This document shows positions 28,776-51,112 of a stretch of DNA of 60,111 nucleotides, piece after piece. This DNA is from Acidimicrobiaceae bacterium. GTDB taxonomy: Bacteria; Actinomycetota; Acidimicrobiia; Acidimicrobiales; RAAP-2. The translations under genes were made by a program, and so were the position numbers. Every line of letters begins with the position of its first letter. Positions within the stretch are counted from its first letter, which is position 1. Where the stretch lies: assembly GCA_003142095.1 (NCBI GenBank), contig PLON01000072.1:64480-124590 (forward strand), written 5' to 3'. The notes beneath the pieces were generated by a model. The model was given only the letters and a program-made list of their open reading frames with translations. It was not told where the DNA came from and ran no database searches.

Positions 28776-28831
28776 CCGACCTCCCTTGACCAAACCGAAA
28801 GTCTTAACGATGGCCATCGGTCGAGTCCAAT

Positions 28832-32594: not shown

Positions 32595-34052
32595 TTACGG
32601 CACGAGGAAATTTGTGAACTGCCACGGGTCCTCCGCGTCAAGCGAACGACCTGACCATTGATCGAACCAGTCCGTGTGCGTCGAGACAGGATCCCAGTCG
32701 AGCGGTCCCGACCAGAGCGTGCCGACGTAAGGCATCGCAACGTCGAGCACGTCGCGCCACGGCAGCTCGTCGGGCACGTGGACGCCTTCGCGCGGAGAGG
32801 TGAGCATCCACGCCACCGCGCCAAGAATCGACGCGGCCACCTGAATTGTTGTCGCGTTCTGATGGGGCGCCAACGATCGAGCTTCGTCGATCGTTGTCTG
32901 CATACCAGTCCACCAAGCTTTGTAGGGGTGACCCATCACCAGCACGCCGAGCTCGTCGCGGCCCGAAATGATCTCGTCGTTCATGATGCGCTGACGATCG
33001 GGGTAGAGATAGTCGTTGCCCTCGAGCTCCACGAAGCTCGCCCATGCGGCGTCGCTCGGACAGTAGGCGTAGTGAACCGTCGGCCGATAGACCGCAGTGT
33101 CGCCCTCCCAGACTGTCAAGTGGTCACAGATCGTGAAAGCTTCACCGTGTCGAATCACCATGCCGACAATGGGGCCAGAGGGCACCGTTGACCGCACCAA
33201 CGTCTTGTGGGCCATCTTCGCCAAGCAGATCTGGTTACGCGGTCCCTCGCCTTCGTGGGTGAGCCCGAGAGGTGGCAGCAACTTTTCGTGCGTGCCCCAG
33301 CCCATCTCCGCGGGCGCTACGCCCTCTTCGTAGAAGCCGTCCACGCTCCAGGTGTTGACGAATTCGCCCACTTCTTTGGGGCGGTCACTGATCTGGGTGT
33401 CGCGTTCGGCGATGTGTATGGATTTCACGTCGAGAAGCTGTGCGAGCACGTTGAAACGCTGTGCGCTCAACGCCTCGGTAATGGCGTCGTGGCGTTTGGC
33501 GAGTAGTCCGTCGCGCAGCACTGCTTCGGCGATTTCACTCAGCGCCTGCTTCGTAAAGTGACTCACCAACCCGGGGTTGGCGCCGTGCTCGACAACCGCC
33601 GAGGGGCCGTCGTTCGCGCCCCAGCGAGCGAGTTGGCGACGCAGCGCCATGTGGCGCCAGTAGAGCGTGCGTTCTTGGGGCGAGGCACTCGCGGGATCGT
33701 CGTAGGGCGACCACACTTCGACCGAGGTATTCAGATAGCGAACGTTGTGGTCGCGACACCAGTCGAGCAGTTCGTCGAGCCCGATATTCCACGCGAGATC
33801 AATGAGCAGATCACCGTCGCCGAGCAGTCCGTCCAGCGTCGCTTCGAGGTTGTCCTTCGTGATCTCAATTTGGACGTAGTTCACGCCACGTTCGATCGAC
33901 GACGCGATCCGCGAGCGATTGTCGCGACTTTCGAGCACCGTGACCGACGCCGGATCGAGCTTGAATCTTTCGAGCAGGAGTGGCAACAGACACTGGGCTA
34001 CCGACCCACAACCAAGAATGACGACACGATCTGGCGCGACGAATTCGCTCAA
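32595..34052 (-). CDS. hss: Homospermidine synthase (saccharopine-dehydrogenase fold)
   Basis: The 485-residue protein begins with an NAD-binding motif VVILGCGSVAQCLLPLLLER and continues with VNYVQIEITKDN, DLLIDLAWNIG and VVEHGANPGLVSH, features of bacterial homospermidine synthase. The enzyme joins two putrescines, or spermidine and putrescine, with NAD as prosthetic group to make sym-homospermidine. The start is TTG 34052; a stop codon lies directly before it and the glycine motif follows 11 residues later, so no better start exists. It is 81 bases downstream of the SDR gene and may be co-transcribed with the mycofactocin operon. Confidence 0.85.
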   Translation of the reverse strand: MSEFVAPDRVVILGCGSVAQCLLPLLLERFKLDPASVTVLESRDNRSRIASSIERGVNYVQIEITKDNLEATLDGLLGDGDLLIDLAWNIGLDELLDWCRDHNVRYLNTSVEVWSPYDDPASASPQERTLYWRHMALRRQLARWGANDGPSAVVEHGANPGLVSHFTKQALSEIAEAVLRDGLLAKRHDAITEALSAQRFNVLAQLLDVKSIHIAERDTQISDRPKEVGEFVNTWSVDGFYEEGVAPAEMGWGTHEKLLPPLGLTHEGEGPRNQICLAKMAHKTLVRSTVPSGPIVGMVIRHGEAFTICDHLTVWEGDTAVYRPTVHYAYCPSDAAWASFVELEGNDYLYPDRQRIMNDEIISGRDELGVLVMGHPYKAWWTGMQTTIDEARSLAPHQNATTIQVAASILGAVAWMLTSPREGVHVPDELPWRDVLDVAMPYVGTLWSGPLDWDPVSTHTDWFDQWSGRSLDAEDPWQFTNFLVP

Positions 34053-34133: not shown

Positions 34134-34919
34134 TTACGAGACCGTCATGCCACCGTCGACGGCGATGTCTGCGCCAGTGACTGCCGATGCGGACGCCGAG
34201 CACAGCCACACAATGGCCGCCGCAATCTCGGTTGGTTCGAGCAGGCGACCGATGGGTTGTTGGTGCGCGAACTCTTCGACGCTCGCGAGGTCGTAGATCT
34301 TCGCCGACGCTTCGAGGATCGCGGTGCGGGTCGATCCCGGACTCACGGCGTTGGCGGTGACGCCGTAGTGCGCCAGGTCCATCGCGACACCGCGGATCAA
34401 TCCGACAACGGCGTGTTTCGCGGCGCTGTAGGGCGCGAGATGGTAAAGACCAGTGTGTCCAGCCGCTGAGGCGACCGCCACGATGCGTGAATGCGCATCC
34501 TTGCCATTGGCGATGAGCACTGGTGCGGCGGCTTCGATCAGTCGCCGGGTGCCGAGTACGTTCACTGACCACACCGCGTCCCACGCGGCGTCGCTGATCT
34601 CCCAGAGTGGCGCCCCGGCACCGAGCACGCCCGCGCACGCGACGACCGCGTCTAGTCGACCGAAGTGGCGCGTCGCGGTCTCGACCGCGAGCTGCATGTC
34701 GGTAGCGCTTCGCACGTCTCCCACCAGTCCCAGTACGACGTCTCCGTGACGGGCCACGACGGCGTCGAGATCCGCCCGCGTCGCAAGTGCGTACGGAACG
34801 TCGGCAATATCGCGACAGCGATCCACGGCGATCACGTGGTAGTTCTCGTTCACCAGCGCGTCGACGGTCGCGGCGCCGATGCCGCGCGCGGCGCCGGTGA
34901 CGATGGCGACCCGACTCAC
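34134..34919 (-). CDS. Mycofactocin-coupled SDR-family oxidoreductase
   Basis: A 261-residue short-chain dehydrogenase. TGAARGIGAATVDAL near the N-terminus binds the nucleotide, and the catalytic Ser-Tyr-Lys lie in VASAAGHTGLYHLAPYSAAK (20 residues). The end, VTGADIAVDGGMTV, is standard. Its GTG start shares one base with the mftD stop, and SDR proteins next to mftD are a known group that keeps its NAD tightly bound and needs mycofactocin to be re-oxidised. That coupling is inferred from the context and from ALWEISDAAWDAVW-like features (here PLWEISDAAWDAVW). Confidence 0.85.
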   Translation of the reverse strand: MSRVAIVTGAARGIGAATVDALVNENYHVIAVDRCRDIADVPYALATRADLDAVVARHGDVVLGLVGDVRSATDMQLAVETATRHFGRLDAVVACAGVLGAGAPLWEISDAAWDAVWSVNVLGTRRLIEAAAPVLIANGKDAHSRIVAVASAAGHTGLYHLAPYSAAKHAVVGLIRGVAMDLAHYGVTANAVSPGSTRTAILEASAKIYDLASVEEFAHQQPIGRLLEPTEIAAAIVWLCSASASAVTGADIAVDGGMTVS

Positions 34920-36088
34920 TAGCCGAGCCTTCGAAAGAAGTCCGTGGGCGCGAGAACGTCGGTGCGGTCAAGTTCTTTGATGTCGGATTTGCCGAGTGCC
35001 AGAAGCGCCGAATCAATACCGCCGCGTATCACGTCAAGCACGTTCTCGACGCCGGCTTGGCCATTCGCGGCGAGTCCCCACAGGTACGCGCGTCCGACCA
35101 TGACGGCATTCGCGCCAAGGGCGAGAGCCTTCACGACGTCGCTGCCACGGCGCACGCCACCGTCAAGAAGAACTTCAATCTGATCTCCGACGGCGTCAAC
35201 GACGGCCGGCAGAGACCGCAAGGGTGCGGGAGTGCCGTCAAGATTGTTGCCGCCGTGGTTTGACACCGAGAGTGCGCTCGCGCCCAGATCGACCACTCGC
35301 TTCGCGTCGTCGACGCGACTCACGCCCTTCACCATGAAGGGTCCCTCCCACTGCGCACGCAACCACGCGACGTCGCTCCAGCTCGGCAGCGCGCTCTGCA
35401 TCCACTCGTAGTACGCGGCGAAGAACGTCGGGGGCTTCTCTCCTGGTGCGGCCATGTTGGGTGTCGTGAGCGTGGGCATGTGTCCCGTGCGGGCGAATGA
35501 CCAGAACCAACGAGGACGCGCGAGAACGTCGGGAGCCAATTTCATCACCGCTTTGAGATCAATCGTGTCGGGAATCCAGGGACTGCCCCAGTCGCGACCG
35601 TTTGAAAACGACCAGTCGAGGGTGAGGATGATCCCCTTGGCTCCGGCGTTCTTCGCGCGCTCGAGGCGTTGGACCATCGTGTCGCGATCGCCGGACCAGT
35701 ACATCTGAAAGAGAACCTGATCGCTGACGCCACAGACCTCTTCGAGCGAGTGGCTCGCGAACGAGCTCAGTCCCATCGCGACCCCGCGCGCCGCGGCCGC
35801 GCGAGCGACGGCGACTTCCCCTTCGGGATGAACCGCCTGTACGCCCGTGGGCGAAATGAGCACCGGCATCGAGACCGATTGGCCCATCACGGTCGTCGCC
35901 ATAGAACGTTCATTGGAGAGACCCGCCACGTGAGGCGCAAAACCGAGTTGGTCGAAGCTGGCGAGGTTGTCGTTCGACGACAGTCCCTTTTCCGAGCCCG
36001 CGACGAGGGCACCGTAGACCGACTTGGGCAGGCGTTTCTCGGCACGACGCTGCGCGACGGCCACCGTTTCAAACCACGAACTAGCCAC
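34919..36088 (-). CDS. mftD: MftD, pre-mycofactocin synthase (FMN alpha-hydroxy-acid oxidase family)
   Basis: FMN enzyme that oxidises the AHDP intermediate to the redox-active alpha-keto amide, pre-mycofactocin. The 389-residue TIM barrel shows WFETVAVAQRRAEKRLPKSV at the start, VLISPTGVQAVHPEGE, SVSNHGGNNLDGTPA (substrate-binding His) and LLDGGVRRGSDVV for FMN, all nearly as in mycobacterial MftD. I chose GTG 36088 (after GGGAG), which matches the mycobacterial start; GTG 36109 would add 7 residues. It is 52 bases downstream of mftC and overlaps the SDR start by one base. Confidence 0.95.
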   Translation of the reverse strand: MASSWFETVAVAQRRAEKRLPKSVYGALVAGSEKGLSSNDNLASFDQLGFAPHVAGLSNERSMATTVMGQSVSMPVLISPTGVQAVHPEGEVAVARAAAARGVAMGLSSFASHSLEEVCGVSDQVLFQMYWSGDRDTMVQRLERAKNAGAKGIILTLDWSFSNGRDWGSPWIPDTIDLKAVMKLAPDVLARPRWFWSFARTGHMPTLTTPNMAAPGEKPPTFFAAYYEWMQSALPSWSDVAWLRAQWEGPFMVKGVSRVDDAKRVVDLGASALSVSNHGGNNLDGTPAPLRSLPAVVDAVGDQIEVLLDGGVRRGSDVVKALALGANAVMVGRAYLWGLAANGQAGVENVLDVIRGGIDSALLALGKSDIKELDRTDVLAPTDFFRRLG

Positions 36089-36140
36089 ATTTCTCCCGTC
36101 ACGGCTCACCGCGACACTACCTGAGCGGTTTCGCTGATCT

Positions 36141-37256
36141 CTACGAACGCGACGTCAACGAAACGGACACCCGTCGCGAATGGTCCGGCGTTGAATGCGG
36201 TCGTATGGCGACCTGCTTTGTCGCCAAGGCACGCTCACCATGGCCAAAGACGCACTCGGGATCAGGGTCGGTCATCTCGAGACCCGTGAAGAACTTGGCC
36301 GCCATGCAGCCGCCCCGGCACGCGTCGTACGACCCGCACGACGCGCACGCGCCAGGGCTCGTGGGCTCGCGCAGCGATCGAAACAACTCGCCATCACTCC
36401 ACACGGCCGCAAACCCGTTCTCGCGGACGTTGCCCGCGAGGAACTCGTCGTGAATTACGAACGGGCACGCGTAGACGTCGCCAACGGGATCGATGAGGCA
36501 CACCACGCGCCCGGCGCCACAGAGGTTCAGACCCTCGAGAGGATTTCCTAGAGCGGAGAGATGAAAGAAGGAGTCGCCCGTCAAAACATTGGGACGCGCG
36601 AGCAACCACCGATAGAGCGCGCGACCTTGATCGAGCGTCGGGTGCAGATCGTTCCAGACGTCGGCGCCGCGACCTGACGGACGAAGTCGCGTGAGTCGCA
36701 GTTCGGCACCGTAGTCACGCGCGAGCGCCTCGAAGTCATCAAGCTGCTCCACGCTGTCGCGCGTCATCACGACCGAGATCTTGAACTGTCCAAAGTTGGC
36801 GAGGCGCAGGTTGTCCATCGCGCGCCGAGCGGCCGCGTAGCTTCCCCGACCTCGGATGCGGTCATTTGTCGCGGCGTCGGCGCCGTCGATGGAGACTTGA
36901 ATGTCGAGGTAGTCGATTCGCGCAAGACGTTCGGCGGCGGCTCGATCAATACGGGTGCCGTTCGTTGAGAACTTGACGCCAACGCGCTGCGCGACCGCGT
37001 GTTCGACCAATTCAAAAAAATCACGACGAACCATTGGTTCGCCGCCACCGATGTTGACGTAGAAGATCTGCATCGCCGCAATCTCGTCGATCAACTTCTT
37101 CGCCTCGCTCGTGGTGAGTTCGCGAGGATCGCGACGACCCGATGACGAGAGGCAGTGGGTGCAGGCCAGGTTGCACGCGTAGGTCAATTCCCACGTCAAA
37201 CAGATCGGTGCCGCGAGACCTCGCTCGAAGCGATCACGCAGTGACGACTCAGGCAC
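36141..37256 (-). CDS. mftC: MftC, mycofactocin radical SAM maturase
   Basis: Radical SAM/SPASM enzyme that decarboxylates the C-terminal Tyr of MftA and then forms the Val-Tyr lactam crosslink. The 371-residue protein has the 4Fe-4S motif CNLACTHC (near 27-34), GGGEPMVR (SAM-binding GGE) and a SPASM domain with CGAGRVVCLIDPVGDVYACP, CASCGSYDACRGGC and a last Cys at DPDPEC for two auxiliary clusters. GTG 37256 overlaps mftB by 8 bases. The sequence matches MftC closely, including the TWELTYACN lead-in. Confidence 0.96.
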   Translation of the reverse strand: MPESSLRDRFERGLAAPICLTWELTYACNLACTHCLSSSGRRDPRELTTSEAKKLIDEIAAMQIFYVNIGGGEPMVRRDFFELVEHAVAQRVGVKFSTNGTRIDRAAAERLARIDYLDIQVSIDGADAATNDRIRGRGSYAAARRAMDNLRLANFGQFKISVVMTRDSVEQLDDFEALARDYGAELRLTRLRPSGRGADVWNDLHPTLDQGRALYRWLLARPNVLTGDSFFHLSALGNPLEGLNLCGAGRVVCLIDPVGDVYACPFVIHDEFLAGNVRENGFAAVWSDGELFRSLREPTSPGACASCGSYDACRGGCMAAKFFTGLEMTDPDPECVFGHGERALATKQVAIRPHSTPDHSRRVSVSLTSRS

Positions 37257-37527
37257 TCAAGAGTCCCGAGCGGTGGAGCGACGCTAGCGCCGCGACGTAG
37301 CGCGCGCGCTGCTCACTCGAGACCAGTTCGTCAAGTGCGGCACTGACGTTGTCAAAGTCACCGAGACGGCGAACGAGTTCGACCAGATCGCGCGACTTGA
37401 GAAACACCAAGCGACGATTGCCGTGATGGTAGGCCAGTGCTCCGAACGCTTCGTCGCGCAGAGACACCTGTGGGCTCAACTCCCAATGGCTCGACTCGTC
37501 GAAGACGTCGATGCTCGTCGTCGACAC
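37249..37527 (-). CDS. mftB: MftB, mycofactocin peptide chaperone (RRE domain)
   Basis: A 92-residue PqqD-like RiPP recognition element that binds the MftA leader and presents it to MftC. Visible features are LSPQVSLRDEAFGALAYHHG and a following NRRLVFLKSRDLVELV helix. It begins with GTG 37527, only 3 bases after the mftA stop, and ends by overlapping mftC by 8 bases. Length and sequence fit the family. Confidence 0.93.
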   Translation of the reverse strand: MSTTSIDVFDESSHWELSPQVSLRDEAFGALAYHHGNRRLVFLKSRDLVELVRRLGDFDNVSAALDELVSSEQRARYVAALASLHRSGLLSA

Positions 37528-37530
37528 GGA

Positions 37531-37638
37531 TTAATAGACCCCGCACAGACCATCGATGGAGACCTCTTCGACCAGCAGCTCTTCGACCTCGGCGCTCACG
37601 TCGGTCGTCACTTCGTAGATCAGGGTTTCTGGCGTCAC
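37531..37638 (-). CDS. mftA: MftA, mycofactocin precursor peptide
   Basis: A 35-residue ribosomal peptide ending in SIDGLCGVY, the diagnostic C-terminus of MftA, where the last Val-Tyr is turned into mycofactocin. The N-terminal part is acidic (SAEVEELLVEEV) and serves as leader. GTG 37638 is chosen because the ribosome site GAGGAGG ends five bases before it; longer open reading upstream overlaps mftF and is not peptide-like. It is followed at 3 bases by mftB. The cleaving peptidase MftE is not encoded in the window. Confidence 0.93.
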   Translation of the reverse strand: MTPETLIYEVTTDVSAEVEELLVEEVSIDGLCGVY

Positions 37639-37665
37639 GATGCCTCCTCGACGTCCATTCTGCCT

Positions 37666-37684
37666 CGCCCGCGACGTGCGGGCG
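37666..37684. promoter_or_regulatory. Inverted repeat between mftA and mftF
   Basis: CGCCCGC-GACGT-GCGGGCG is a 7-bp dyad in the 70-bp gap between the divergent mftA and mftF starts, 27 bases from mftA and 24 from mftF. It could be an operator shared by both directions or a leader hairpin. No regulator gene of the MftR type is adjacent. Confidence 0.4.
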
Positions 37685-37708
37685 CAACACACATGAGAGA
37701 CTCCGATC

Positions 37709-39154
37709 GTGAGCGAATCCAGGCCACTCGTTCCGACCCCGCCGGAGACATCTCTTCCCGAGGGCGTCATGGTGCGCGTCGACGATAACGCGTCATTCAT
37801 TGATCGAGATCTCGTCAGCGGAGGCAGTCCCTGGCGCCTCCTTCGTTTACGCGGTCACTCGAGAGCCATTGTCGAGCGCTGGCGCGAGGGTGCTCCCGTG
37901 CGCGCTGGCGAAGAGCGATTCGCTCGAACGCTGGTTCAGCAAGGCTTCGTGCACCCGACCTTTGATACACCACTCTCACGAGAGGACATTGACGTCATCA
38001 TTCCCGTCTATGACGACGTCGCCGCCTTGTCATCGCTCCTTATCCAGTTAGGGGGATATCACGTCATGGTGGTCGACGACGGTTCCCAGGACCGTGAGTC
38101 CGTCGCGCAGTGTGCGAGCGAGCACGGTGCGTCTCTGGTGCGCGTTGAATCGAATCGGGGTCCCGGTCATGCCCGCAACGTCGGCGCGGCGGCGACGACA
38201 CGGAGACTTCTGTGGTTCATTGACGTTGACGTCTCGCTCGACGACGCTGACCGGGTGGCTCGGCACCTAGAGAGCGCCTTCGAAGACCCTCTCGTCGCGG
38301 CGGTCGCTCCTCGAGTTCGCGGGGCCGACGGACCATCGTTGCGCGACCACTTTGAGCATCACTTCGGTCCACTCGACATGGGAGAGCACAGCGCCCTCGT
38401 GGTCCCGACGGGTGCCGTGGCGTATGTGCCCAGCGCGTGCGTGATGGTACGCCGCGACGCCTTCGGTGACGGGTTCGACGAGTCGCTTCGTCTCGGTGAA
38501 GACGTGGATTTTATGTGGCGACTACACGATCAGAACTGGCTCGTGCGATACGACGCAACGGTGCAGGTCTCGCACCGTGCTCGTTCGTCGTGGCTCGAAT
38601 GGTGGCGCCAACGCCAGCGTTACGGAGCTTCCAGTGCCGAACTCGCGAAGCGACACGGCAAGCGCCTCGCGCCGTTGCGCGCCGATTCCTGGACGTTTGT
38701 CGCGTGGACTTCCGTGCTCGTTGGTCGACCGACCCTGGGGGGGCGCATCGTCAACGGTGCGCGACGCCACGCCCGTGAGCGATTTTTTCAGTCGGAGGAT
38801 AACCCCGACGCCGCTGCGAATCAGATAGTTACTCGCAACATGATCCGTGCCGGCGGACCACTGGCGCGCGCCACGGTTCGAACTTTTGGTGTCGTCCTAC
38901 TGCTCTGCGCACTTCACCCGCGACTGCGCGCCCGCGCTCTCGGACTCTTCCTCGTCGGTTCGGCCTGGCGCTGGCGCCACGACCAATTTCATCCGACTGA
39001 CGTGCCCTTTGCTCTCGCGGACGATCTGGCCTACGGAACCGGCGTCATTCGCGGTGCCGTGCGCGCGAAGTCGTTTCGTTCACTGACTCCCGATGTGACA
39101 AAGTCGACCGTCGGGCTACGCGAGATCTTGGGTCTTCCAGACGGCACCAGGTAA
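37709..39154 (+). CDS. mftF: MftF, mycofactocin glycosyltransferase
   Basis: GT2-family enzyme that adds beta-1,4 glucose units to premycofactocin. The 481-residue protein has an MftF-type N-terminal domain (LPEGVMVRVDDN, SGGSPWRLLRLRGHS), then the GT-A fold with DVIIPVYDD, MVVDDGSQD and FIDVDVSLDD (DXD) and EDVDFMWRLHDQNWLVRYD. C-terminal hydrophobic segments (near 383-425, VVLLLCALHPRLRARALGLF) suggest membrane attachment. It starts with GTG 37709, divergent from mftA rather than downstream of mftD as in many genomes. Confidence 0.93.
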   Translation: MSESRPLVPTPPETSLPEGVMVRVDDNASFIDRDLVSGGSPWRLLRLRGHSRAIVERWREGAPVRAGEERFARTLVQQGFVHPTFDTPLSREDIDVIIPVYDDVAALSSLLIQLGGYHVMVVDDGSQDRESVAQCASEHGASLVRVESNRGPGHARNVGAAATTRRLLWFIDVDVSLDDADRVARHLESAFEDPLVAAVAPRVRGADGPSLRDHFEHHFGPLDMGEHSALVVPTGAVAYVPSACVMVRRDAFGDGFDESLRLGEDVDFMWRLHDQNWLVRYDATVQVSHRARSSWLEWWRQRQRYGASSAELAKRHGKRLAPLRADSWTFVAWTSVLVGRPTLGGRIVNGARRHARERFFQSEDNPDAAANQIVTRNMIRAGGPLARATVRTFGVVLLLCALHPRLRARALGLFLVGSAWRWRHDQFHPTDVPFALADDLAYGTGVIRGAVRAKSFRSLTPDVTKSTVGLREILGLPDGTR

Positions 39155-39157
39155 TTA

Positions 39158-39784
39158 CTATCGACTGGTGTAGCTCGCCAACTTCAACTGCAATCTTTCA
39201 CGCACAGCGGGCCACTCAGTGTCGAGTACGGAGAAAATAGCCGAGTCACGCAGCCGCCCCTCTTCGCCCGGCACCATGGAGGGCTGCCAGTGTCGAAGCA
39301 CTCCTTCAAAGGTCGCGCCAATCCTTAAGATCGCATTTCGCGATCGCTCGTTACGGGCGTCGGTCTTCAGGTCAACGCGACCGACGCCGAAGGTCGTAAA
39401 GGCGTGCTCCAACAAAAGAAGTTTGGCATTGGTGTTGATTCCCGTTCGCTGGGTCGACGCCGCGAGCCACGTCCCGCCGATCTCCACGGCATACGGCGTC
39501 GAAGAATCATTGAGACGTCGAATTGTCATGATCCTCGTGACCCCCACGACGCGCTCGCGAGCGACGTCGACCTGCACGAAGGGCACTACTTCGCCCGACT
39601 TCCACATTGACAACATGACGTCGACGTACTGGGTAGCTTCGTCGACGGTCTGAAAGACCGTGGTATAGAAATACGACGAACGATCTTCGTTCGCCGCCAC
39701 GACGAGTGCGTCAATGTGCTCTGGTGCGAGAGGCTCGAGTCGAACGTAGGAACCGGTCAGAGTAGGAATCGGGTAGGCGTTCAC
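39158..39784 (-). CDS. GNAT-family N-acetyltransferase
   Basis: A 208-residue protein of the RimJ/RimL type. It shows [20 protein letters not shown] at the start, [11 protein letters not shown], then [20 protein letters not shown] for the acetyl-CoA pyrophosphate loop and [20 protein letters not shown], typical of the family. It would acetylate a protein N-terminus, antibiotic or small amine; the substrate is not evident. Its stop lies 3 bases from that of convergent mftF. Confidence 0.85.
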
Positions 39785-39834
39785 TCATCCATCTTTTCGT
39801 GACGTCGCATAGACCTCGCGACGATAGTGCTGAG

Positions 39835-40170
39835 CTACGTCTCGCGCGGAAGGTTGTTCGTCGCCCACAACGTCAATTCGTGCATCGCCGGCATGAGTGC
39901 CGTACCGGCACTCGACAGCGTGTACGTGACCGAGACGGGCGGTCCAACGTGAACGTCACGAACGATCAGACCACTCGCCTGCAGTTCGCTCAGTCGCTCG
40001 GCGAGAACGGAGTCACTTATTCCCTCCACTCGTCGTCCGAGTTCCGCGAATCCGAGCGGTCCACTCGCAAGCGTCCCCAGAATCACGCCGCTCCAACGCT
40101 TACCAAGAAATTGAAAGGCCCGCACCAGCGCCTCATCACAGGATGAAGTAGCGCCAGCGCAATCCAACAT
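39835..40170 (-). CDS. HxlR-family transcriptional regulator
   Basis: The 111-residue winged-helix protein begins with CAGATSSCDEALVRAF, where an N-terminal Cys pair can sense redox or electrophiles, then FLGKRWSGVILGTL, LGFAELGRRVEGISDSVLAE and a wing with VTYTLSSAGTALM. ATG 40170 gives the usual family length. A longer reading from 40266 would run across the divergent promoter and adds 32 residues. HxlR proteins often repress an adjacent quinone reductase, as found here. Confidence 0.88.
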   Translation of the reverse strand: MLDCAGATSSCDEALVRAFQFLGKRWSGVILGTLASGPLGFAELGRRVEGISDSVLAERLSELQASGLIVRDVHVGPPVSVTYTLSSAGTALMPAMHELTLWATNNLPRET

Positions 40171-40273
40171 CGGAGAATCAGCCTTTACCGGCTCAGTACT
40201 CGCGGTTGGTGTCACCTCCAGAATTGTACCATTTACTACGCAGAAGCGAGCCGCTTTGTTTTTCAAAGTCGCC

Positions 40274-40279
40274 TATACA
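40274..40279 (+). promoter_or_regulatory. Predicted -10 box of the quinone-reductase gene
   Basis: TATACA lies 30 bases upstream of the ATG at 40310, inside the HxlR-reductase intergenic region. No clear -35 box is placed at 17 bases. Flanking GTAC-containing sequences (40226-40237 and 40279-40290) are roughly inverted and could bind the HxlR protein. Confidence 0.4.
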
Positions 40280-40309
40280 GTGAAAGTACCCCACTATTTA
40301 GGAGTTCAT

Positions 40310-40960
40310 ATGTCACTCTTTCGCTTGGACGCCAGTATTCGAACCGAAGGCTCGAACAGTCGTGCCGTCGCCGACATCGTCGAAAACGCGTGGCGCAAAG
40401 GTCATCTCGACGCCGATGTCACGCGACGTCACGTTGGCGTCGAGCCCTTACCTTCGAGGCTGTGGCCCGAGGCCGTGTTCGCCAGCTGGACGCCAGAAGA
40501 CGACCGCAGTCCCGAACAGCGTGACACGGTGGCCACGGTCGCCGCTCTCGCGGACGAAGTTCTCGAAGCTGACGCGCTGCTCTTCGCGATCCCGCTCTAT
40601 AACTTTGGTGTCTCGCAGCACTTCAAGGCGTGGGTCGACGTGATGTTGACCGATCCACGACTCTCCTCCGCGGCCGGTCGGGCCCTCGACGGTCGTCCCG
40701 CGGTACTCGCGATGATTCGCGGAGGCGCCTACGGTGCTGGCACGCCCCGAGAGGGTTGGGACCACGCCACGGGTTGGATTCGTCGAATTCTCGAAGACGT
40801 GTGGGGACTGGACCTCAAAGTGGTGGAGCTTGAGTTCACGTTGGCGGGGGTGAACCCGGCCCTCGACGAGTTCAAGGAGCTTGCGGCGACCATGCGACAA
40901 GACGCCGAAGCACTGGCGCTTGAACACGGCCGTCACTTGGCGGGAGCCACCGTCCGATAA
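40310..40960 (+). CDS. Flavodoxin-fold NAD(P)H:quinone oxidoreductase / azoreductase-like
   Basis: The 216-residue flavodoxin-like protein has LFRLDASIRTEGSNSRAVAD at the start (phosphate loop), ADALLFAIPLYNFGVSQHFK (20 residues, FMN-binding and family signature IPLYNFGVS) and MIRGGAYGAGTPREGWDH. It would reduce quinones or azo compounds with NAD(P)H and FMN. ATG 40310 follows AGGAG by 6 bases. It is divergent from the HxlR gene, which is its likely repressor. Confidence 0.88.
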   Translation: MSLFRLDASIRTEGSNSRAVADIVENAWRKGHLDADVTRRHVGVEPLPSRLWPEAVFASWTPEDDRSPEQRDTVATVAALADEVLEADALLFAIPLYNFGVSQHFKAWVDVMLTDPRLSSAAGRALDGRPAVLAMIRGGAYGAGTPREGWDHATGWIRRILEDVWGLDLKVVELEFTLAGVNPALDEFKELAATMRQDAEALALEHGRHLAGATVR

Positions 40961-41004
40961 CGACTCTACGGACGTCGCTCGAGGTCTAAGAGTACGTTTC
41001 GTAC

Positions 41005-41463
41005 ATGGAGTTCGAAGAGTCCGCTCGCACTCGCGCTCGGTACATGATCGTCACGGGTTTTGCCGTTGTTGCCGCGGGTTCTCTCACGACACTTATTCAA
41101 TGGATCGGAGATGGAGCACTCAGATTCAGTTCAAACTTTGACATCGAAGAGTTTGCCGTAGCTCTCAGTTCCTTGGCGGCACTCGTCGCTTGGTGGTTTC
41201 TTTCACAGGTCATCGCAAAAGTTGGCTCCGAGAGGCAGCTCGTGCGAAGAGCTCTTGCGGGCTTAGCGGCTCAATCGTTGCTACTCGCCGTCAGTGCGTT
41301 TGCGATTGTCGCGATCGTCAACGTTATTACGTGGCAACTTGTCGCCGACACGCTGTCCGGAGCTGGCTCGCTACTGATCTCGCTTGGATTCCTTACGATG
41401 ATGCTCACGTACCGCGGCGACGCCGAACTACCAGTTTCGATTGATACTCCAACGAACGTGTAA
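41005..41463 (+). CDS. Hypothetical four-helix membrane protein
   Basis: A 152-residue protein with about four membrane helices, near residues 14-34, 48-70, 82-107 and 118-135. The N-terminus and loops are charged (FEESARTRARY, KVGSERQLVRRAL). I do not recognise a family. ATG 41005 has a weak ribosome context. The gene lies 44 bases downstream of the quinone-reductase gene in the same direction, and its stop is 4 bases from that of the convergent alcohol dehydrogenase. Confidence 0.65.
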   Translation: MEFEESARTRARYMIVTGFAVVAAGSLTTLIQWIGDGALRFSSNFDIEEFAVALSSLAALVAWWFLSQVIAKVGSERQLVRRALAGLAAQSLLLAVSAFAIVAIVNVITWQLVADTLSGAGSLLISLGFLTMMLTYRGDAELPVSIDTPTNV

Positions 41464-41467
41464 CTAC

Positions 41468-42619
41468 TTAAAAGCGAATCACGCCCCGTAGGTTCTCGCC
41501 CGATTCGAGATCGTCGTAGCCCTGTTGCACGTCATCGAGGCCGTACTCCTTCGTGATGAGGTCATCGACGTGCAACTTGCCTTCGTGGTGGAGGCGAAGC
41601 AACCGCGGTATCTGTACTCGGGGACTCTCCGAGCCAAAGATCGTTCCGCGCAGTTCTTGGTTCAACATCGCGAACATGAACAGGTTCAGGTCAACGGTGG
41701 TCTGGTCGTAGGGGGCGATCGATACCGTCACAACGACGCCGCCCTTCGCAGTGATTGAGCGGGCCTGCTCAATAAGCTCGCCCGTCAACACCCCGACAGT
41801 GATGATCGTCACATCGCAGTTCTTCCCGCTCGTGAGCTCGGGCAAGATGCCAAAGGCTGCTTCAAGAGTGGTCGGGCAGCCGTGCGTGGCACCAATCTTG
41901 AGGGCTCGGTCGATCTTGGACTGATTAGTGTCGATCGCAATCACGGCACGTGCGCCGGCGTGCGCCGCGCCCTGGATCGCGCCCGAACCGACGCCGCCGC
42001 AGCCAATGACCGCCACGGTGTCACCCGGCTTTACGCCACCGCGACTCACCGCTGACCCGAATCCGGTGGAGAGACCGCACGAGATCAGCGCGGCTGCCCG
42101 AAGGTCGTACCAGGGATCAATACGGATCAGTGACGCCTCATTTACCACGATGTACTCAGAAAATGTCCCGAGCTGACACATGCGATTGAGATCGACATCG
42201 CCGAAGTGGTGGCGCCACGTTCCATCCGAGATCATGGGACCCATCAAGGTGTACGCGCCCAAGTCACAGAGATACTGGCGTCCCGAGGCGCAGTATTCGC
42301 ACCGTCCGCACGAGGGAACGAACGACACCGCAACATGGTCACCTTCCTTGATCGTGGTGACGTTCTCGCCCACTGACTCGACGATCCCCGCTCCCTCGTG
42401 ACCCCCAATGACGGGAAACATCGAACTGTGACCGGTCAACAACTGGACAAGGTCAGAACCCGGCACCATGTCGCCGCTACGCACGTGCTCGTCGGAGTGA
42501 CAGAGTCCGGCGAAGCTCATCTTCACCTTGACTTCGTTGGCGTGCGGCTCGTCGATCTCAATGGTCTCGGTGAGCCATGGCCCGTGGAGTTCGCTTACGA
42601 TGGCAGCTCTAACTTGCAT
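41468..42619 (-). CDS. NDMA-dependent alcohol dehydrogenase (mycofactocin-associated, Zn-MDR family)
   Basis: A 383-residue zinc alcohol dehydrogenase with the catalytic-zinc residues in CHSDEH and GGHEGAG, the structural-zinc cysteines in CGRCEYCASGRQYLC, and the Rossmann motif GCGGVGSGAIQ near 190. It belongs to the Rxyl_3153-like NDMA-dependent group, known from its insert (VRSGDMVPGS ... QLLTGH) and from MCQLGTFSEYIVV. Such enzymes hold NAD tightly and need mycofactocin to regenerate it, so this is a probable client of the mft genes 2.3 kb to the left. ATG 42619 follows GGGGGAACG. Confidence 0.9.
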   Translation of the reverse strand: MQVRAAIVSELHGPWLTETIEIDEPHANEVKVKMSFAGLCHSDEHVRSGDMVPGSDLVQLLTGHSSMFPVIGGHEGAGIVESVGENVTTIKEGDHVAVSFVPSCGRCEYCASGRQYLCDLGAYTLMGPMISDGTWRHHFGDVDLNRMCQLGTFSEYIVVNEASLIRIDPWYDLRAAALISCGLSTGFGSAVSRGGVKPGDTVAVIGCGGVGSGAIQGAAHAGARAVIAIDTNQSKIDRALKIGATHGCPTTLEAAFGILPELTSGKNCDVTIITVGVLTGELIEQARSITAKGGVVVTVSIAPYDQTTVDLNLFMFAMLNQELRGTIFGSESPRVQIPRLLRLHHEGKLHVDDLITKEYGLDDVQQGYDDLESGENLRGVIRF

Positions 42620-44476: not shown

Positions 44477-47158
44477 ATGACCTCCTCGATGAACTCCTTT
44501 GATACGAAGAGCACCCTTGACGTTTCGGGTCGCTCGCTCACCTACTTTTCTTTGCAAAGCGAGCGACTAGAAAAATTCGGCGTCGAGCGTCTTCCGTTCT
44601 CGATCAAGGTCCTCCTGGAAAATCTGCTGCGTCACGAAGACGGTGTGAAAGTTACGGCGAGCGACATCGAGGCGCTGGCGCGCTGGGCCGACACTCCCTC
44701 GAACCACGGCGAAGCGGCGGGCGACGACGCACGCGAGATTGCCTTCACCCCCGCGCGAGTCCTGATGCAGGACCTGACCGGCGTGCCCGCCGTCGTCGAC
44801 CTCGCCGCCATGCGCGACGCGATCGTCGCCCTCGGCAGTGACGCGAAGAAGATCAACCCGCTCGTGCCCGTCGAGTTGGTCATTGACCACTCGGTCATCG
44901 TGGAACGTAACGGCACCGCGACGAGTTACGACGAGAACGTCGCCATTGAGTACCAACGCAATGTCGAGCGCTACACCTTTTTGAAGTGGGCTCAGAGCTC
45001 CTTCGAGCAGTTTCGCGTCGTCCCTCCGGGCATGGGCATCTGCCACCAGGTGAACCTTGAACACCTCGCCAAGGTCGTCTTCGACCTCGAAGGCGTCGCC
45101 TACTTCGACACCGTGGTCGGCACCGACTCACACACGACAATGGTGAACGGTCTGGGCGTGCTCGGCTGGGGGGTTGGCGGCATCGAAGCCGAGGCGGGCA
45201 TGCTGGGTCAGCCGGCGTCCATGCTCATTCCACCGGTGGTCGGACTGCGCATTGTGGGTGCGACGCGCGAAGGCGTCACCGCGACCGACGTCGTTTTGAC
45301 GATCACTCAACTCCTTCGAGGTCACGGGGTCGTGGGTAAGTTCGTCGAGGCCTTCGGGCCTGACGTGAAGTCGCTCTCGGTCGAGACGCGCGCCACTATT
45401 GGAAACATGTCGCCGGAATACGGGGCCACCTGCACGCTCTTTCCGATCGACCAAGTCACCCTTGACTACCTCGCCTTCACGGGTCGCCCCGCAGGTCAGC
45501 TCGAACTCGTCAAGGCCTACGCGCAGGCTCAAGGCGTCTGGCACCACGAACACGCGCCCGAGCCCGTGTACTCGGAGTACGTCGAGCTCGACCTCGCGAG
45601 CGTCGAGCCGAGCCTCGCGGGTCCGAAGCGTCCCCAAGACCGCGTGTCACTATCGGGCGCGCGCGCCGCGTTTCGTAACGCCCTCGGTCGCGAGCCCATC
45701 GAAGTGCGCGGCGTTGCGGCCGCCGATCACCTGCGTGACGGCGACGTCACCGTGGCCGCGATCACTTCGTGCACCAATACGTCAAACCCGTCGGTGCTCG
45801 TCGCCGCGGGCCTGGTCGCCAAAAAGGCCCTCGAGCGAGGACTACAAACAAAGCCCTGGGTAAAGACGTCGCTCGCACCGGGTAGCCGGGTCGTGACCGA
45901 CTACTTAGAACGTGCCGGACTGATTGAGCCACTCGACGGGCTCGGCTTCTACCTCGCCGGCTACGGATGCACCACGTGCATCGGTAACACCGGTCCCTTG
46001 CTGGAGGGCGTCTCGGACGCCGTCAATGAGCACGACCTTTCGGTGGTGTCGGTGCTCTCGGGAAACCGCAACTTCGAAGGACGCATCCACCCCGACGTCA
46101 AGCAGAATTTCCTCGCCAGTCCTCCCCTCGTTGTCGCCTACGCCCTCGCCGGCACGATTGACATTGACCTCAGCAGCGAACCCCTCGGCACCGACTCGAA
46201 CGGCCAGCCGGTCTTTCTGTCCGAACTCTGGCCGAGCGACGCCGACGTCGCAGACGCGGTGCGGACTTCGGTCACTCCCCAAATGTTCGAAGAGCGTTAC
46301 GCCAGCGTCTTCAGTGGCGACGAACGCTGGAGCGCGGTGCCGACGACCCACGAAGTCACTTACAACTGGGATCAGAAATCAACCTACGTAAAGCTGCCGC
46401 CCTACTTTGACGGACTGACCATGGAGCCCGGCGTCGTGACGGACGTGGTCGGCGCGCGAGTGCTGGCGAAGCTCGGCGATTCGGTGACGACAGACCACAT
46501 CTCTCCCGCGGGCAACATCCGTGCGAGCAGCCCGGCGGGAAAATATCTCGTCGACGCGGGCGTCGACCCGTCCGCCTTCAACAGCTACGGCACGCGTCGC
46601 GGTAATCACCAGGTCATGATGCGCGGTACTTTCGCCAACATTCGCCTGCGCAACCTCATGGCGCCCGGTACCGAAGGCGGCGTCACGATCAAGCTGCCCG
46701 AGGGCACGCCGATGTCGATCTTCGACGCCGCGATGGCCTACGCCGAGGAGGGCACTCCGCTCGTCATTCTCGCGGGTAAGGAGTACGGAAGTGGTTCGAG
46801 CCGTGATTGGGCCGCGAAAGGCACCAAGTTGCTCGGCGTGCGCGCCGTTCTCGTCGAGAGTTTCGAACGCATTCACCGTTCGAACCTCGTGGGCATGGGA
46901 GTCTTACCGTTGCAGTTCTTGCCCGGCGAGAGCGCGGAGACCCACGGCCTCGACGGAACCGAAGTCATCTCCATCACCGGACTCGAGCCACTCAATCACG
47001 GAGAAACCGTGCCCCGTGTCACCGTGCACGTCACGCGCGACAATGGTGAGTCGTCCACGTTCGAAGTGCGTCTGCGCATCGATACGCCCACCGAGGCCGA
47101 ATACTTCCGTCACGGCGGGGTATTGAACTTCGTGCTGCGTCAACTGGCCCAGAGTTAG
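44477..47158 (+). CDS. acnA: Aconitate hydratase A
   Basis: TCA-cycle enzyme isomerising citrate to isocitrate with a 4Fe-4S cluster. The 893-residue protein has [20 protein letters not shown] (20 residues) near 215, the cluster Cys in [12 protein letters not shown] (near 434) and [12 protein letters not shown] (near 500), and the substrate-binding swivel domain [16 protein letters not shown] near 775. ATG 44477 is chosen; the longer reading from 44375 overlaps the divergent argS start. Its TAG stop interlocks with that of the convergent transporter (TTAG, 47155-47158). Confidence 0.97.
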
Positions 47159-48852
47159 CCAACGAGAGCGACGAGCGCCTGATCCACGCTCTCGTAGATC
47201 GGAATCTTCTGAATCGCCGGGTCAAAGGACGTAGCGAGAGTCTTCTTCACCCCCGTGTTCACACGGGCGAAGGCCATCGTGACGTGGTCTTTCTCTAAAT
47301 CGGCGACGACCTGCGAGAGAATCGTCATGCCGGTGAAGTCGATTTCGGCCATCGCCGCGGCGTCAAAGACGAAATGCTGCGTCGTCGGATAACTCGCGAG
47401 AAGTTGATGAAGCTCTCGGCGAAAGATTCCGGCATTCGCGAAGAAGAGATCGTTGTCGAAGAGCGCGACGAGCGCGTGGTCGACGATGGTCACGTCCGCC
47501 TCGCTCAAGGGCTCCCAGCTCGTCGTTCCGTCACGTCGACCGAGCACGACCAAGTGCGGGCGCGCCGAGCGCCAGGTCTGATCGAACACGGCGAGCCCGA
47601 CCGCGATGGCAATACCTTGTTCGACGCCGATGAAGATGACGCCGAGCGCCGACACCACGGCGAAGAGGAACTCCACGCGATTCGCACGCCAAATCTTCTT
47701 GAGCAACTCGACTTTGATCAGTCGCGAGGCGACGAAGAACAGCACGCCGGCGAGGGCGGCCAAAGGAATCGTGTGAGCGTATTTGCCGAGCGGCGACAGC
47801 ACAATTGCGAGCACCGCCGCAGTGAGACCGACGAGCTTCGTAGATCCTCCGGCCAGACGCGAGACGGTCGTGCGTGGGGGCGAGGCATCCACCGGGAAGG
47901 CGCCCACGAGCCCACAGGCCACGTTCGCGAGCCCCACGCCCACGAAGTCACGGCTGATGTTGGCGTCGACCCCGAGGTCGTCGGCCGCCGTTCTTGACGT
48001 CGCGGCCGTCTGAGAAAGAATGACGATAACGAGCGTGACGGCCGTGGTCAGCACCACGCCCCACTGACCCGACGACAACCAATGCAGACGCCACGTCGGA
48101 GGTCCGACGTGAACCGACCCGAGCTCCTTCACACCGTGGTTCTCGAGGGCCAACGTAACGCACAAGACCGTCGAGATAGCGATTGCCGCGAGCGCCCACG
48201 GGAGGCGCGCGTTGATCTTCTCGCCCACCAGCATCAGAACGAGTGTCCCAACGGCGAGGGCAATCGACCAGGCACTGACGTGCGTGAGATGGTGCGCCAT
48301 CCAGTTCACTCTTTGGACGTCACTGGTGCCCCCCGAAGGTACGCCGAGTGCGCTCGGGAGTTGATGCACGAAGATGATGACGCCGATGCCGCAGAGAAAT
48401 CCCGTCACGATCGGTAACGACAGGAAGTCGGCAATCCAGCCCAGCTTCAAGAGTCCTACCGCGAGAACGGCGAGCCCCGTGACGACGGCCGTCGCCGCAA
48501 CCAACTCGAAATACAGAGTCGTCGACACCGGCGCGAGACGGATCAACACGACCGCGAAGAGCGGCGCAATGGTGGAGTCGGCACCGACCGACACGATGGG
48601 ATTGGAGCCAACGAAGACAAAGACCACCGTCGCTGTAATGAAGGCGATCATCGCAATAAATGCGGGCACACCGGCGAGTCGAGACGTCGCCAGCTGCTCG
48701 GGAATCGCAATCGCGAGAAGGGTGACCCCGGCGAGAAGTTGACCGGCGTAGTTCTCTCGCGTGACGCCGCGGAACGTATCGCGAAGTCCTCGTGACGGTT
48801 GACGCAGTCCGATTGGCGTACGCGACTCGTTCGGAGTCAACGGTTTCGCCAT
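47155..48852 (-). CDS. SulP-family inorganic anion transporter with STAS domain
   Basis: The 565-residue integral membrane protein has about 10-12 helices in the first 420 residues, with [20 protein letters not shown] (SulP signature near 35) and [20 protein letters not shown] near 290. The C-terminal cytoplasmic STAS domain (about 440-560) ends in [20 protein letters not shown] (20 residues). SulP carriers move sulfate, bicarbonate or similar anions; the substrate is not predictable. The stop overlaps that of aconitase by 4 bases. Confidence 0.92.
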
Positions 48853-48884
48853 CTCCTCACCCTACGGCCGCAGGGCGGCGCGAT

Positions 48885-49622
48885 CTAGCTCGTCGCGACG
48901 ACGCGAAAGCCCTCGGCGAGTCGGCCCTCTTTCATCCCGGCGCTTTTCGCCGTGGCGGCAGACCAGTTACGCAACATCTTCTTCAGCCCCTTACGGTTAC
49001 CGATCTGACTGACGTGCTTACTGAGTGCCTCGAACTTCTGGTCAAAGGTCTTCGTGATGTCGACAACCATCGTGGGACTCGCGCCACCGAGCCACACTTC
49101 GGCAACGGTGTGGGGTTCGAAGCCCTCACGAATCAGTTCGGGGAAGGCGTGGGGGTTACGCGCGTCGGGGTAGACCGCGCGCAGGGTCGCTTCGCCCGTC
49201 GCCATGTGGTCGGGGTGACTCGCGAAAATGCGCTCGTAGTTGCGCTCGGGGCTCTGGGTGATCACGAGCTGTGGCCGGTGCGTGCGAATGACGCGGGCGA
49301 TCTCGCGACGCAGCGCCATCGTTGTTTCGACGCGTCCGTCGGGCCAGTGCAGGAAGGTCAGGTTGGTGACACCCACTTCTTTGGCGGCCGCGGTCTGTTC
49401 GGCTTCACGAACCGCTACGCGCTCTTCGCGGCTATGGGTGGACTCGTCGCCGCCCGCGTCGCCCGACGTGACGAGGCAGTACCCGACGTCGACGCCGCGA
49501 TTGGTCAGGTAGGCAATCGTGCCGGCCGTACCGAAGTCCACGTCATCGGGGTGCGCGACCACGACCAGCGCGCGCTTGAGCGACTTGTCGTAGGCGTAGA
49601 CCGGCAGGGCTTTTGTGCTCAC
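48885..49622 (-). CDS. PIG-L/LmbE-family deacetylase
   Basis: The 245-residue zinc-dependent deacetylase has LVVVAHPDDVDFGTAG (zinc His and catalytic Asp), CLVTSGDAGGDE and FASHPDHMATGEATL (second zinc His). Such enzymes remove N-acetyl groups from amino sugars, as MshB/Mca do in mycothiol metabolism; which one applies here is unknown. GTG 49622 overlaps the helicase stop by 4 bases (GTGA); a Met at 49652 would lie inside the helicase gene without a ribosome site. Confidence 0.85.
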   Translation of the reverse strand: MSTKALPVYAYDKSLKRALVVVAHPDDVDFGTAGTIAYLTNRGVDVGYCLVTSGDAGGDESTHSREERVAVREAEQTAAAKEVGVTNLTFLHWPDGRVETTMALRREIARVIRTHRPQLVITQSPERNYERIFASHPDHMATGEATLRAVYPDARNPHAFPELIREGFEPHTVAEVWLGGASPTMVVDITKTFDQKFEALSKHVSQIGNRKGLKKMLRNWSAATAKSAGMKEGRLAEGFRVVATS

Positions 49623-50869
49623 GATACAGAGTCTTGCATCGTCGGGTCCCAATTCGCCAGATCCTTCAAACGGGGGTCGTTGGAGAAGATCTCGATAATC
49701 GGACGCTTCAAGTTCAGTCGCCGCATGATCACTTCGGCGTCAATGGCCTGATTCCAGAGCAGAAGCGACACCACGACGCCGGTCGATCCGGCCCGGGCGG
49801 TGCGTCCGGAACGGTGCAGGTAGGCCTTTTGGTCCTCCGGTGGGTCGAAGTGCATCACACAGTCCACCCCGTCGATGTGCAATCCGCGCGCTGCGACGTC
49901 GGTCGCCACGAGGACGGGCAGTTTCTCCGCCTGGAAGTCCGCCAACGCCTTTTCGCGTTGGCTCTGGCGAAGGTCCCCGTGGATCGCGGCAGCCGTCACG
50001 CCCTCTTTTTGGAGTTGCTCAACGAGTCGATCGGCGCCGCGCTTCGTGCGACAGAAGATGATTGTCTTATCGAAGGAGCGACAGATCGTGGCCGCAACCT
50101 TGACACGGTCCATCTGGTGAACCTGCAAGAAGTGATGCACCATGCGCGAAACAGTCTGGGTGTCGCTCGCTACTTCGTGAAAGACGGGATCGGTGAGGTA
50201 ACGCTTCACGAGTCGATCAATGGCGCCGTCGAGCGTGGCCGAAAAGAGGAGCGTCTGGTGAGGCTTCGCCGCGATGCGACGAAGAACCCACTCGACCTGG
50301 GGCATGAAGCCCATATCGGCCATGCGGTCGGCCTCGTCGAGAACGAGTACGTCGAGACTCTCGACGTTGACCTCGCCGCGATCGCCGAGGTCGATCAGTC
50401 GCCCCGGGGTAGCGATAATGACGTCGCAGCCCTTCGCCAACGCTTTGATCTGTCGTTCGATGTCGGCGCCACCGTAGACGGCTGCGACGTGAAGACCGAG
50501 GGCCGCACCGAGAGGCTTTAAGACTTCGTAGACCTGAACGGCCAGTTCGCGCGTTGGTAGTAGCACCAATCCACGCGGTCGGGCCGGTCGAGCGTTCGCT
50601 CCCCCGAGGGTCGTGCCCGCAGCGAGACGCTGGAGCATGGGCAGGCCAAATCCGAGGGTCTTACCCGAGCCGGTCTTGGCCTTGCCGCACACGTCGCGCC
50701 CGGCGAGGGCGTCAGCGATGGTCAGGGCCTGAATGGGAAAGGCGGTCGTGATTCCCTGGGCGGTCAAGACCGCTACGAGTTCGCTGGAGACGCCAAGTCC
50801 CTCAAAGGTTTGATTGGTGGCGTACGAGTCCGCGCCTTGCGCGATGGACTCAACTATTTCACTGCTCAC
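49619..50869 (-). CDS. DEAD-box RNA helicase
   Basis: The 416-residue RecA-like helicase has a Q-motif region FEGLGVSSELVAVLTAQGIT (20 residues), motif I AKTGSGKT, Ib, II VLDEADRMADMG, III SAT and VI HRSGRTARAGSTG. It is RhlE/DeaD-like without a C-terminal extension. It may act in RNA decay or ribosome assembly. It overlaps the PIG-L gene downstream. Confidence 0.95.
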   Translation of the reverse strand: MSSEIVESIAQGADSYATNQTFEGLGVSSELVAVLTAQGITTAFPIQALTIADALAGRDVCGKAKTGSGKTLGFGLPMLQRLAAGTTLGGANARPARPRGLVLLPTRELAVQVYEVLKPLGAALGLHVAAVYGGADIERQIKALAKGCDVIIATPGRLIDLGDRGEVNVESLDVLVLDEADRMADMGFMPQVEWVLRRIAAKPHQTLLFSATLDGAIDRLVKRYLTDPVFHEVASDTQTVSRMVHHFLQVHQMDRVKVAATICRSFDKTIIFCRTKRGADRLVEQLQKEGVTAAAIHGDLRQSQREKALADFQAEKLPVLVATDVAARGLHIDGVDCVMHFDPPEDQKAYLHRSGRTARAGSTGVVVSLLLWNQAIDAEVIMRRLNLKRPIIEIFSNDPRLKDLANWDPTMQDSVS

Positions 50870-51112
50870 GTAAATACGGGTCGTTTCTCGGCTGGACCCG
50901 TAACCGTCGTCTGTAGCAAATGTGGGCCCGAGCCCATCTCATCGAGCTCCCCTACAGTCTACGTGAGAGTTCGCGCCACTTGCCGCACGCGGGGCCACAT
51001 TGTTCGTCACCTTCGGAGACCCCAAAAGAGGACCTTCGTCCTTAGCGCCCGCTCCGTAGGATTGCCGTATGGTCGTCGAGGGTTCTCACGACCAGAAATG
51101 ATGAGGGCGGGC

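Follow-up and report, generated by a model that had tools for sequence, protein, structure and literature searches.

In the mycofactocin pathway, MftE releases the amine AHDP, which MftD deaminates (PMC7491314). An mftE deletion mutant of Mycobacterium smegmatis still makes mycofactocins, though less of them, and builds up Gly-AHDP forms; its authors infer a host peptidase of unknown identity and note that, in principle, an aminopeptidase would be enough (PMC7491314). Among mft mutants, the mftE mutant alone grows on ethanol, with a delay (PMC6529628). Most mycofactocin species, though not all of them, have the MftE, MftD, and MftR families (Haft 2011, PMC3023750), and the genome of Herbiconiux sp. 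L3-i23 is reported to have lost mftB, mftC, and mftE while keeping mftD and mftF (PMC11778925). Here we describe a mycofactocin locus without mftE in a 60,111-nucleotide stretch of an Acidimicrobiaceae bacterium genome (GCA_003142095.1; the window, positions 64480-124590 of contig PLON01000072.1), and we find that most of the window's genus has genuinely lost this single step of a known pathway, with further losses in its family. Among the sampled genomes and groups, that of the window is labeled G000, its genus g1, and its family f1.

An earlier note on this stretch had placed mftA to mftD and a short-chain dehydrogenase/reductase (SDR) gene on one strand, mftF across a divergent 70-bp gap, and an alcohol dehydrogenase (ADH) gene 2.3 kb away. 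All of these genes lie at or near the positions given there, and all exceed the curated cut-offs of NCBIfam models, by which we assigned gene identities. mftA (37531..37638, minus strand, stop included) is a 35-codon precursor gene with a GTG start at 37638, preceded in the sequence by GGAGG; its product ends in VEEVSIDGLCGVY, and this C terminus with its final CGVY scores 41.8 bits with TIGR03969 (cut-off 25). On the same strand are mftB, encoding the precursor chaperone (37249..37527; TIGR03967, 92.5 bits, cut-off 33); mftC, the radical SAM maturase (36141..37256; TIGR03962, 597.6 bits, cut-off 265); mftD, premycofactocin synthase (34919..36109; TIGR03966, 670 bits, cut-off 471); and the mycofactocin-coupled SDR gene, which overlaps the mftD stop (34134..34919; TIGR04504, 331.9 bits, cut-off 250). 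The glycosyltransferase gene mftF (37709..39154, plus strand) starts 70 bp from mftA and passes its cut-off narrowly (TIGR03965, 288.6 bits, cut-off 280). The NDMA-dependent ADH gene (41468..42619, minus strand; TIGR03989, 480.3 bits, cut-off 440) lies 2.3 kb beyond mftF, and is near mftF in most relatives mapped; its product is a probable client of mycofactocin. Two dependent nicotinoprotein dehydrogenase families (SDR and ADH) score above cut-off near the biosynthetic genes. The locus is interior to its contig, in a genome of 2.64 Mb (77 contigs, 96.13% complete, 3.54% contamination).

MftE is missing from the window, as the earlier note had claimed, and from the rest of the genome. TIGR03964 gave no match at E 0.001 in all of G000, window included; the Pfam creatininase model gave just a 13-bit fragment (E 0.055, under cut-off); and a profile built from MftE sequences, seven from the genus and three from the family (profile A1, run on 64 genomes), gave nothing at E ≤ 1. 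Together these searches, the genome-wide check that the earlier note had proposed, dispose of its suggestion that mftE is encoded elsewhere, as far as a 96%-complete genome and 53 other mftE-less relatives allow. With profile A1, six mftE-containing genomes of the genus scored E 5e-92 to 1.6e-101, by construction, as all six supplied profile rows. Among the 54 genomes of the genus with mftC but not mftE (33 of them ≥90% complete), 43, including G000, had no match at E ≤ 1, five had remote creatininase-family genes (E 1e-16 to 4.5e-26), and six had fragments only (E 0.0017-0.29). Four other genomes (G106, G118, G417, and G477) gave no match to profile A1.

The 54 genomes belong to a set of 61 in the genus with mftC over the cut-off, of which the remaining 7 have mftE. 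Of the 54, 53 keep mftD, usually directly after mftC, and in the sole exception (G526) the contig ends soon after mftC. G165 also has mftE, and its mftC is cut off by a contig end, which places it with the 26 of 87 sampled genus genomes that have no mftC over the cut-off; whole-system loss or genome incompleteness is also common in this genus. Across the family, 121 of 160 genomes have mftC over the cut-off, and 49 of the 60 that lie outside the genus have mftE over it. In the class (395 genomes), mftC passed in 96, mftE in 80, and both in 76. The 20 with mftC alone comprise G055 and G326, whose mftE adjoins mftC at 169 and 152 bits, under the cut-off, the latter cut by a contig end; 10 others, in the window's genus; G106 and G118 of genus g3; and six outside the family. 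Of these six, G202, G356, and G374 have no more than creatininase relatives of 132 to 138 bits, located away from mftC; G173 and G233 lack any match at E 1e-15; and a contig end truncates mftC of G197. In other actinobacterial classes, mftE passed the cut-off in 16 of 19 genomes with mftC; the others were G597 (mftE at 169 bits near mftC), G752 (no mftE at E 1e-12), and G697 (a weak mftC of 335 bits and just a 94-bit relative). Thus, mftE loss is nearly fixed in the window's genus but uncommon among the other genomes sampled.

The nearest MftC proteins in named genomes, among the best 80 of at least 589 matches, come from Acidimicrobiaceae metagenome-assembled genomes (palsa_662, palsa_458, palsa_657, bog_806, and others; 83 to 85% identity), whose titles we take to denote peatland and soil habitats. 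In 16 such loci with MftC ≥75% identical, mftC is followed by mftD in 12, by mftE in 2, and by a contig end in 2; some of these loci are the same contigs as sampled genomes, and the counts are not independent.

Two features of mycofactocin loci outside the genus are recorded here in their own right. MftD did not pass its cut-off in 27 of the 60 family genomes outside the genus that have mftC (for example, G231, G391, G398, and G409), through contig ends in at least G411 and G417. In G231, G374, G233, and G173, mftC is followed by one or two proteins of 630 to 730 amino acids that by eye resemble flavin oxidoreductases, with genes resembling those for electron transfer flavoproteins beyond them in some of those loci.

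The mftE-less genomes of the genus usually share the order ADH, divergent mftF, mftA, mftB, mftC, mftD, SDR. Genomes of the genus with mftE have the same order, with mftE standing where mftD otherwise sits; by the locus maps, mftD of the window occupies the slot taken by mftE in seven relatives. These seven have mftD elsewhere in the genome, which rules out a strict either-or in which relatives with mftE would have no mftD. By match coordinates, the gap between mftC and mftD is ≤71 bp in 47 of 52 genus loci (longer in G491, G488, G483, G307, and G478, the last with a split mftC match), and that between mftD and the SDR gene is 0 to 18 bp in 51 of 51. The synteny comparison proposed by the earlier note thus returned the same order in dozens of separate genomes, so that the order in the window is neither chance nor an assembly join; mftC, mftD, and the SDR gene abut, with like junctions in dozens of genomes, and neither the adjacent mftE nor the assembly error against which that note had cautioned was found. 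One of its points did not hold up: the flipped mftF, which it had singled out, is the norm in the genus rather than an oddity. All 57 genus loci have it divergent, as do 16 of the 19 loci mapped elsewhere that contain both genes. Genus g186 has mftF downstream and codirectional (7 of 7 loci with both genes).

Where mftE holds the slot, mftD lies at several places. In G055, G063, and G502 it stands beside an aconitase gene, with an alpha/beta-hydrolase-like gene and then genes for a PIG-L-type protein and a DEAD-box helicase. Family searches and synteny identify the counterpart of this site at 47155..50869 of the window (minus strand), where genes for a sulfate permease (present at this site also in G063 and G502), a PIG-L-type deacetylase, and a DEAD-box helicase lie beside aconitase, with neither mftD nor the alpha/beta-hydrolase-like gene among them. 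With mftD at the aconitase site in those three genomes and absent from it in the window, the gene occupies only one of these two sites at a time. G102, G235, and G485 carry mftD at still different positions, and in the sister genera examined it lies outside the slot next to mftC. As a separate observation, the alpha/beta-hydrolase-like gene (∼300 amino acids, named by motif rather than by family search) adjoins the remote mftD in all of G502, G063, and G055; it was not found in the mftE-less loci compared.

Outside the genus, both sampled genomes of genus g3 (G106 and G118) have mftB-mftC-SDR, with mftD elsewhere and no mftE. In g186, loci with and without mftE coexist: G420, G439, and G452 have mftC-mftD-mftE-SDR-mftF, whereas G450, G454, and G456 have mftC-mftD-SDR-mftF, with 42 to 87 bp between the mftD and SDR matches and no mftE there (in G454, a different contig carries a 111-bit creatininase). 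The order in the former three means that simple deletion of mftE yields the form found in the latter. The full count of 11 family genomes outside the genus without mftE over the cut-off includes contigs that end inside mftD (G411 and G417) or within mftC (G440), as well as G455 and G457, which were left out of locus inspection. Also in g186 is G432, whose mftE match spans 172 codons, versus 220 to 221 in three congeners. In alignment it is missing 46 residues, including the GASGEH segment, and it reads ASTKQHG instead of GSTEQHG and SGAA instead of TETS. The MftE alignment underlying profile A1 shows no variation at the Glu of EQHG, at the S, G, E, and H of GASGEH, or at the Glu of TETS; these presumably include metal ligands or catalytic residues of the creatininase family. 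The mftC and mftD matches of G432 are nearly full length, and its shrunken mftE looks like loss in progress.

How often mftE was lost was addressed with trees from which 8 distant loci (first trees, including that of MftC) or 13 (later trees, including that of ArgS+AcnA and those for the approximately unbiased [AU] test), and short proteins each time, were left out. The MftC, ArgS, and ArgS+AcnA trees place the mftE-containing genomes of the genus among mftE-less ones with mixed support; in the ArgS+AcnA tree they form two well-supported groups whose placement is less supported. A single mftE-less clade within the genus was not rejected (p-AU 0.446; 34 rows versus 18, quick tree), and the near-uniform junction between mftD and the SDR gene favors one origin there. 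The MftD tree is noisy, with a broken G468 copy on a long branch and G477 mislabeled as operon type. Because g3 groups with mftE-containing genera in the ArgS+AcnA tree and g186 has members with mftE, the family has probably seen three or more losses of mftE.

The genes that remain are constrained. Among 38 hand-picked genomes of the 54 (35 to 38 per gene, depending on length; only pairs with 0.1 < dS < 1.6), the median pairwise ratio of nonsynonymous to synonymous substitution rates (dN/dS) was 0.18 for mftC, 0.19 for mftD, and 0.16 for the SDR gene. These three genes are under purifying selection without mftE and are therefore not decaying; as MftD acts on released AHDP, its maintenance implies that release occurs. 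Each of the 12 Cys residues in MftC of the window recurs in all 44 aligned MftC proteins of the genus. Because the last four codons served to find mftA in relatives, CGVY is conserved by construction; the preceding residues read SIDG[LI] in the genus loci with an mftA match, and the 5 of 63 loci with no mftA match are contig ends or second pieces. At the thresholds used, no position separates 46 MftD proteins of mftE-less genomes from 14 of genomes with mftE, and we accordingly rejected an MftD altered to take over cleavage. The same comparison separated the two sets at one position in MftC, two in the SDR, and three in MftF, which ancestry may explain; it left out seven genomes, the mftE-containing set also excluded six other mftE-less or contig-cut family genomes, and short proteins were dropped.

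We consider it fairly probable that this is a working mycofactocin pathway without MftE, in which general host peptidases release the core. MftB would present MftA, and MftC would decarboxylate and cyclize its C-terminal Val-Tyr; cytosolic peptidases of general function, in the simplest case aminopeptidases working inward from the N terminus, would then free the AHDP core, MftD would oxidize AHDP to premycofactocin, MftF would glycosylate it, and the adjacent SDR and ADH would use the cofactor. On this account, mftE was lost, with mftD now in its place next to mftC. The gene content, the missing mftE, the recurrence of this state, and the selection on the remaining genes are direct observations, from which we infer that mycofactocin is still produced and that cleavage falls to host peptidases; the natural mftE losses fit the host peptidase proposed from the M. 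smegmatis mutant.

Several points weigh against this account. The mycofactocin product of mftE-less lineages is predicted from their genes; loss of mftE costs yield in M. smegmatis, a cost that the present lineage would have to tolerate. Evolution is faster in mftF and mftB (median dN/dS, 0.41 and 0.36). Many genomes of the genus are incomplete, and G450, G454, and G456 are just 70, 58, and 71% complete, such that mftE may lie elsewhere in these. An M17 aminopeptidase is present in G000 and in 42 of 42 genomes tested (40 of the 64 profile A1 genomes plus G165 and G326); its occurrence with and without mftE alike makes it a possible enzyme but singles out no candidate. The earlier note's alternative, that another peptidase replaces MftE, survives as an option, although no search here named a specific one. 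Near the locus, among 10 window proteins searched with Pfam and 10 with NCBIfam, all from 27.8 kb onward, there was no convincing replacement; the only peptidase-like domain outside the locus itself was in a CHAP and SH3_3 protein (27882-28817, minus strand; Pfam), and CHAP-domain proteins of this kind usually act on the cell wall.

A bolder claim would be that this acidimicrobial lineage has a different dedicated enzyme for leader removal, or a cofactor bearing a remnant, with MftD taking the place of MftE in the operon and MftE permanently lost; we regard it as unlikely. Its first half, gain of a dedicated peptidase, unrelated to MftE and encoded elsewhere in the genome, that took over leader removal and let mftE go, is likewise unlikely: a specific substitute could explain near-fixed loss in the genus (54 of 61) and would suit the single origin that the AU test did not reject, but no candidate emerged from the sampled window proteins or from the neighbor clusters of relatives, read by eye, and the further losses in g186 and g3 are better fit by a peptidase that was already there. 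We think it quite unlikely that the core is not fully freed, yielding a modified cofactor with Gly or more of the leader still attached, or that MftD has a changed role. The Gly-AHDP forms of the M. smegmatis mftE mutant (PMC7491314), the faster evolution of mftF and mftB, and the three differing MftF positions would suit this idea; against it stand the purifying selection on MftD, its lack of separating positions, and the free amine required for ketoamide formation from AHDP. That MftE has diverged beyond recognition, or that a distant creatininase paralogue acts in its stead, is very improbable: the five genomes with remote family members and the six with fragments are outweighed by the 43 with nothing at E ≤ 1, and the 13-bit Pfam fragment and empty profile search largely refute it for G000. 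An artefact, with mftE in the missing few percent of a 77-contig, 96%-complete assembly or lost at a join, is barely conceivable given the closed slot, the like junctions in dozens of genomes (including the 3-contig G208), and the implausibility of an unseen remote mftE in all 54.

Other genes of the window merit brief mention. A saccharopine-dehydrogenase-like protein of 485 amino acids with no NCBIfam match (32595-34052, minus strand) is encoded beside the SDR gene, and such a gene lies ≤600 bp from the SDR gene in 18 mftE-less genus loci, including the window. A second radical SAM/SPASM protein (50810-52264, plus strand) matches TIGR04053 at 465 bits (cut-off 395), and a protein resembling the beta subunit of coenzyme F420 hydrogenase/dehydrogenase (56233-57357, plus strand) was identified by Pfam, under NCBIfam cut-offs. 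MftG gave no match in G000 at E ≤ 1e-10 with TIGR03970, the one MftG model tried of three.

That MftE is not universal was already known; repeated loss, exchange of the slot, and a decaying copy are the additions made here. The M. smegmatis mutant left open which peptidase stands in for MftE, and genomes with and without mftE within one genus now allow it to be sought by comparing gene content. For annotation, a missing mftE should not be read as missing mycofactocin. In titles and abstract openings of the open-licence PMC literature, we found no report of this lineage. The window shares mftA, mftB, mftC, mftD, mftF, and the client families with the mftA-F cluster of Mycobacterium (M. smegmatis and M. 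tuberculosis), and in both mftC is followed by mftD; it differs in having no mftE, a divergent mftF, SDR and ADH genes beside the biosynthetic genes, and no MftG by TIGR03970. The survey of Haft 2011 (PMC3023750) likewise reports MftE as nonuniversal, and the parts of it consulted make no mention of a particular lineage, of repeated losses, of an exchanged slot, or of a copy in decay. Herbiconiux sp. L3-i23, as described in part of PMC11778925, has also lost mftE while keeping mftD and mftF, but mftB and mftC, kept here, are lost there, so that its pathway is broken. The M. smegmatis mftE mutant likewise has a pathway without MftE, albeit as a laboratory deletion with reduced yield, as far as the relevant part of PMC7491314 describes it; in the lineage of the window, this is the natural state of most of a genus.

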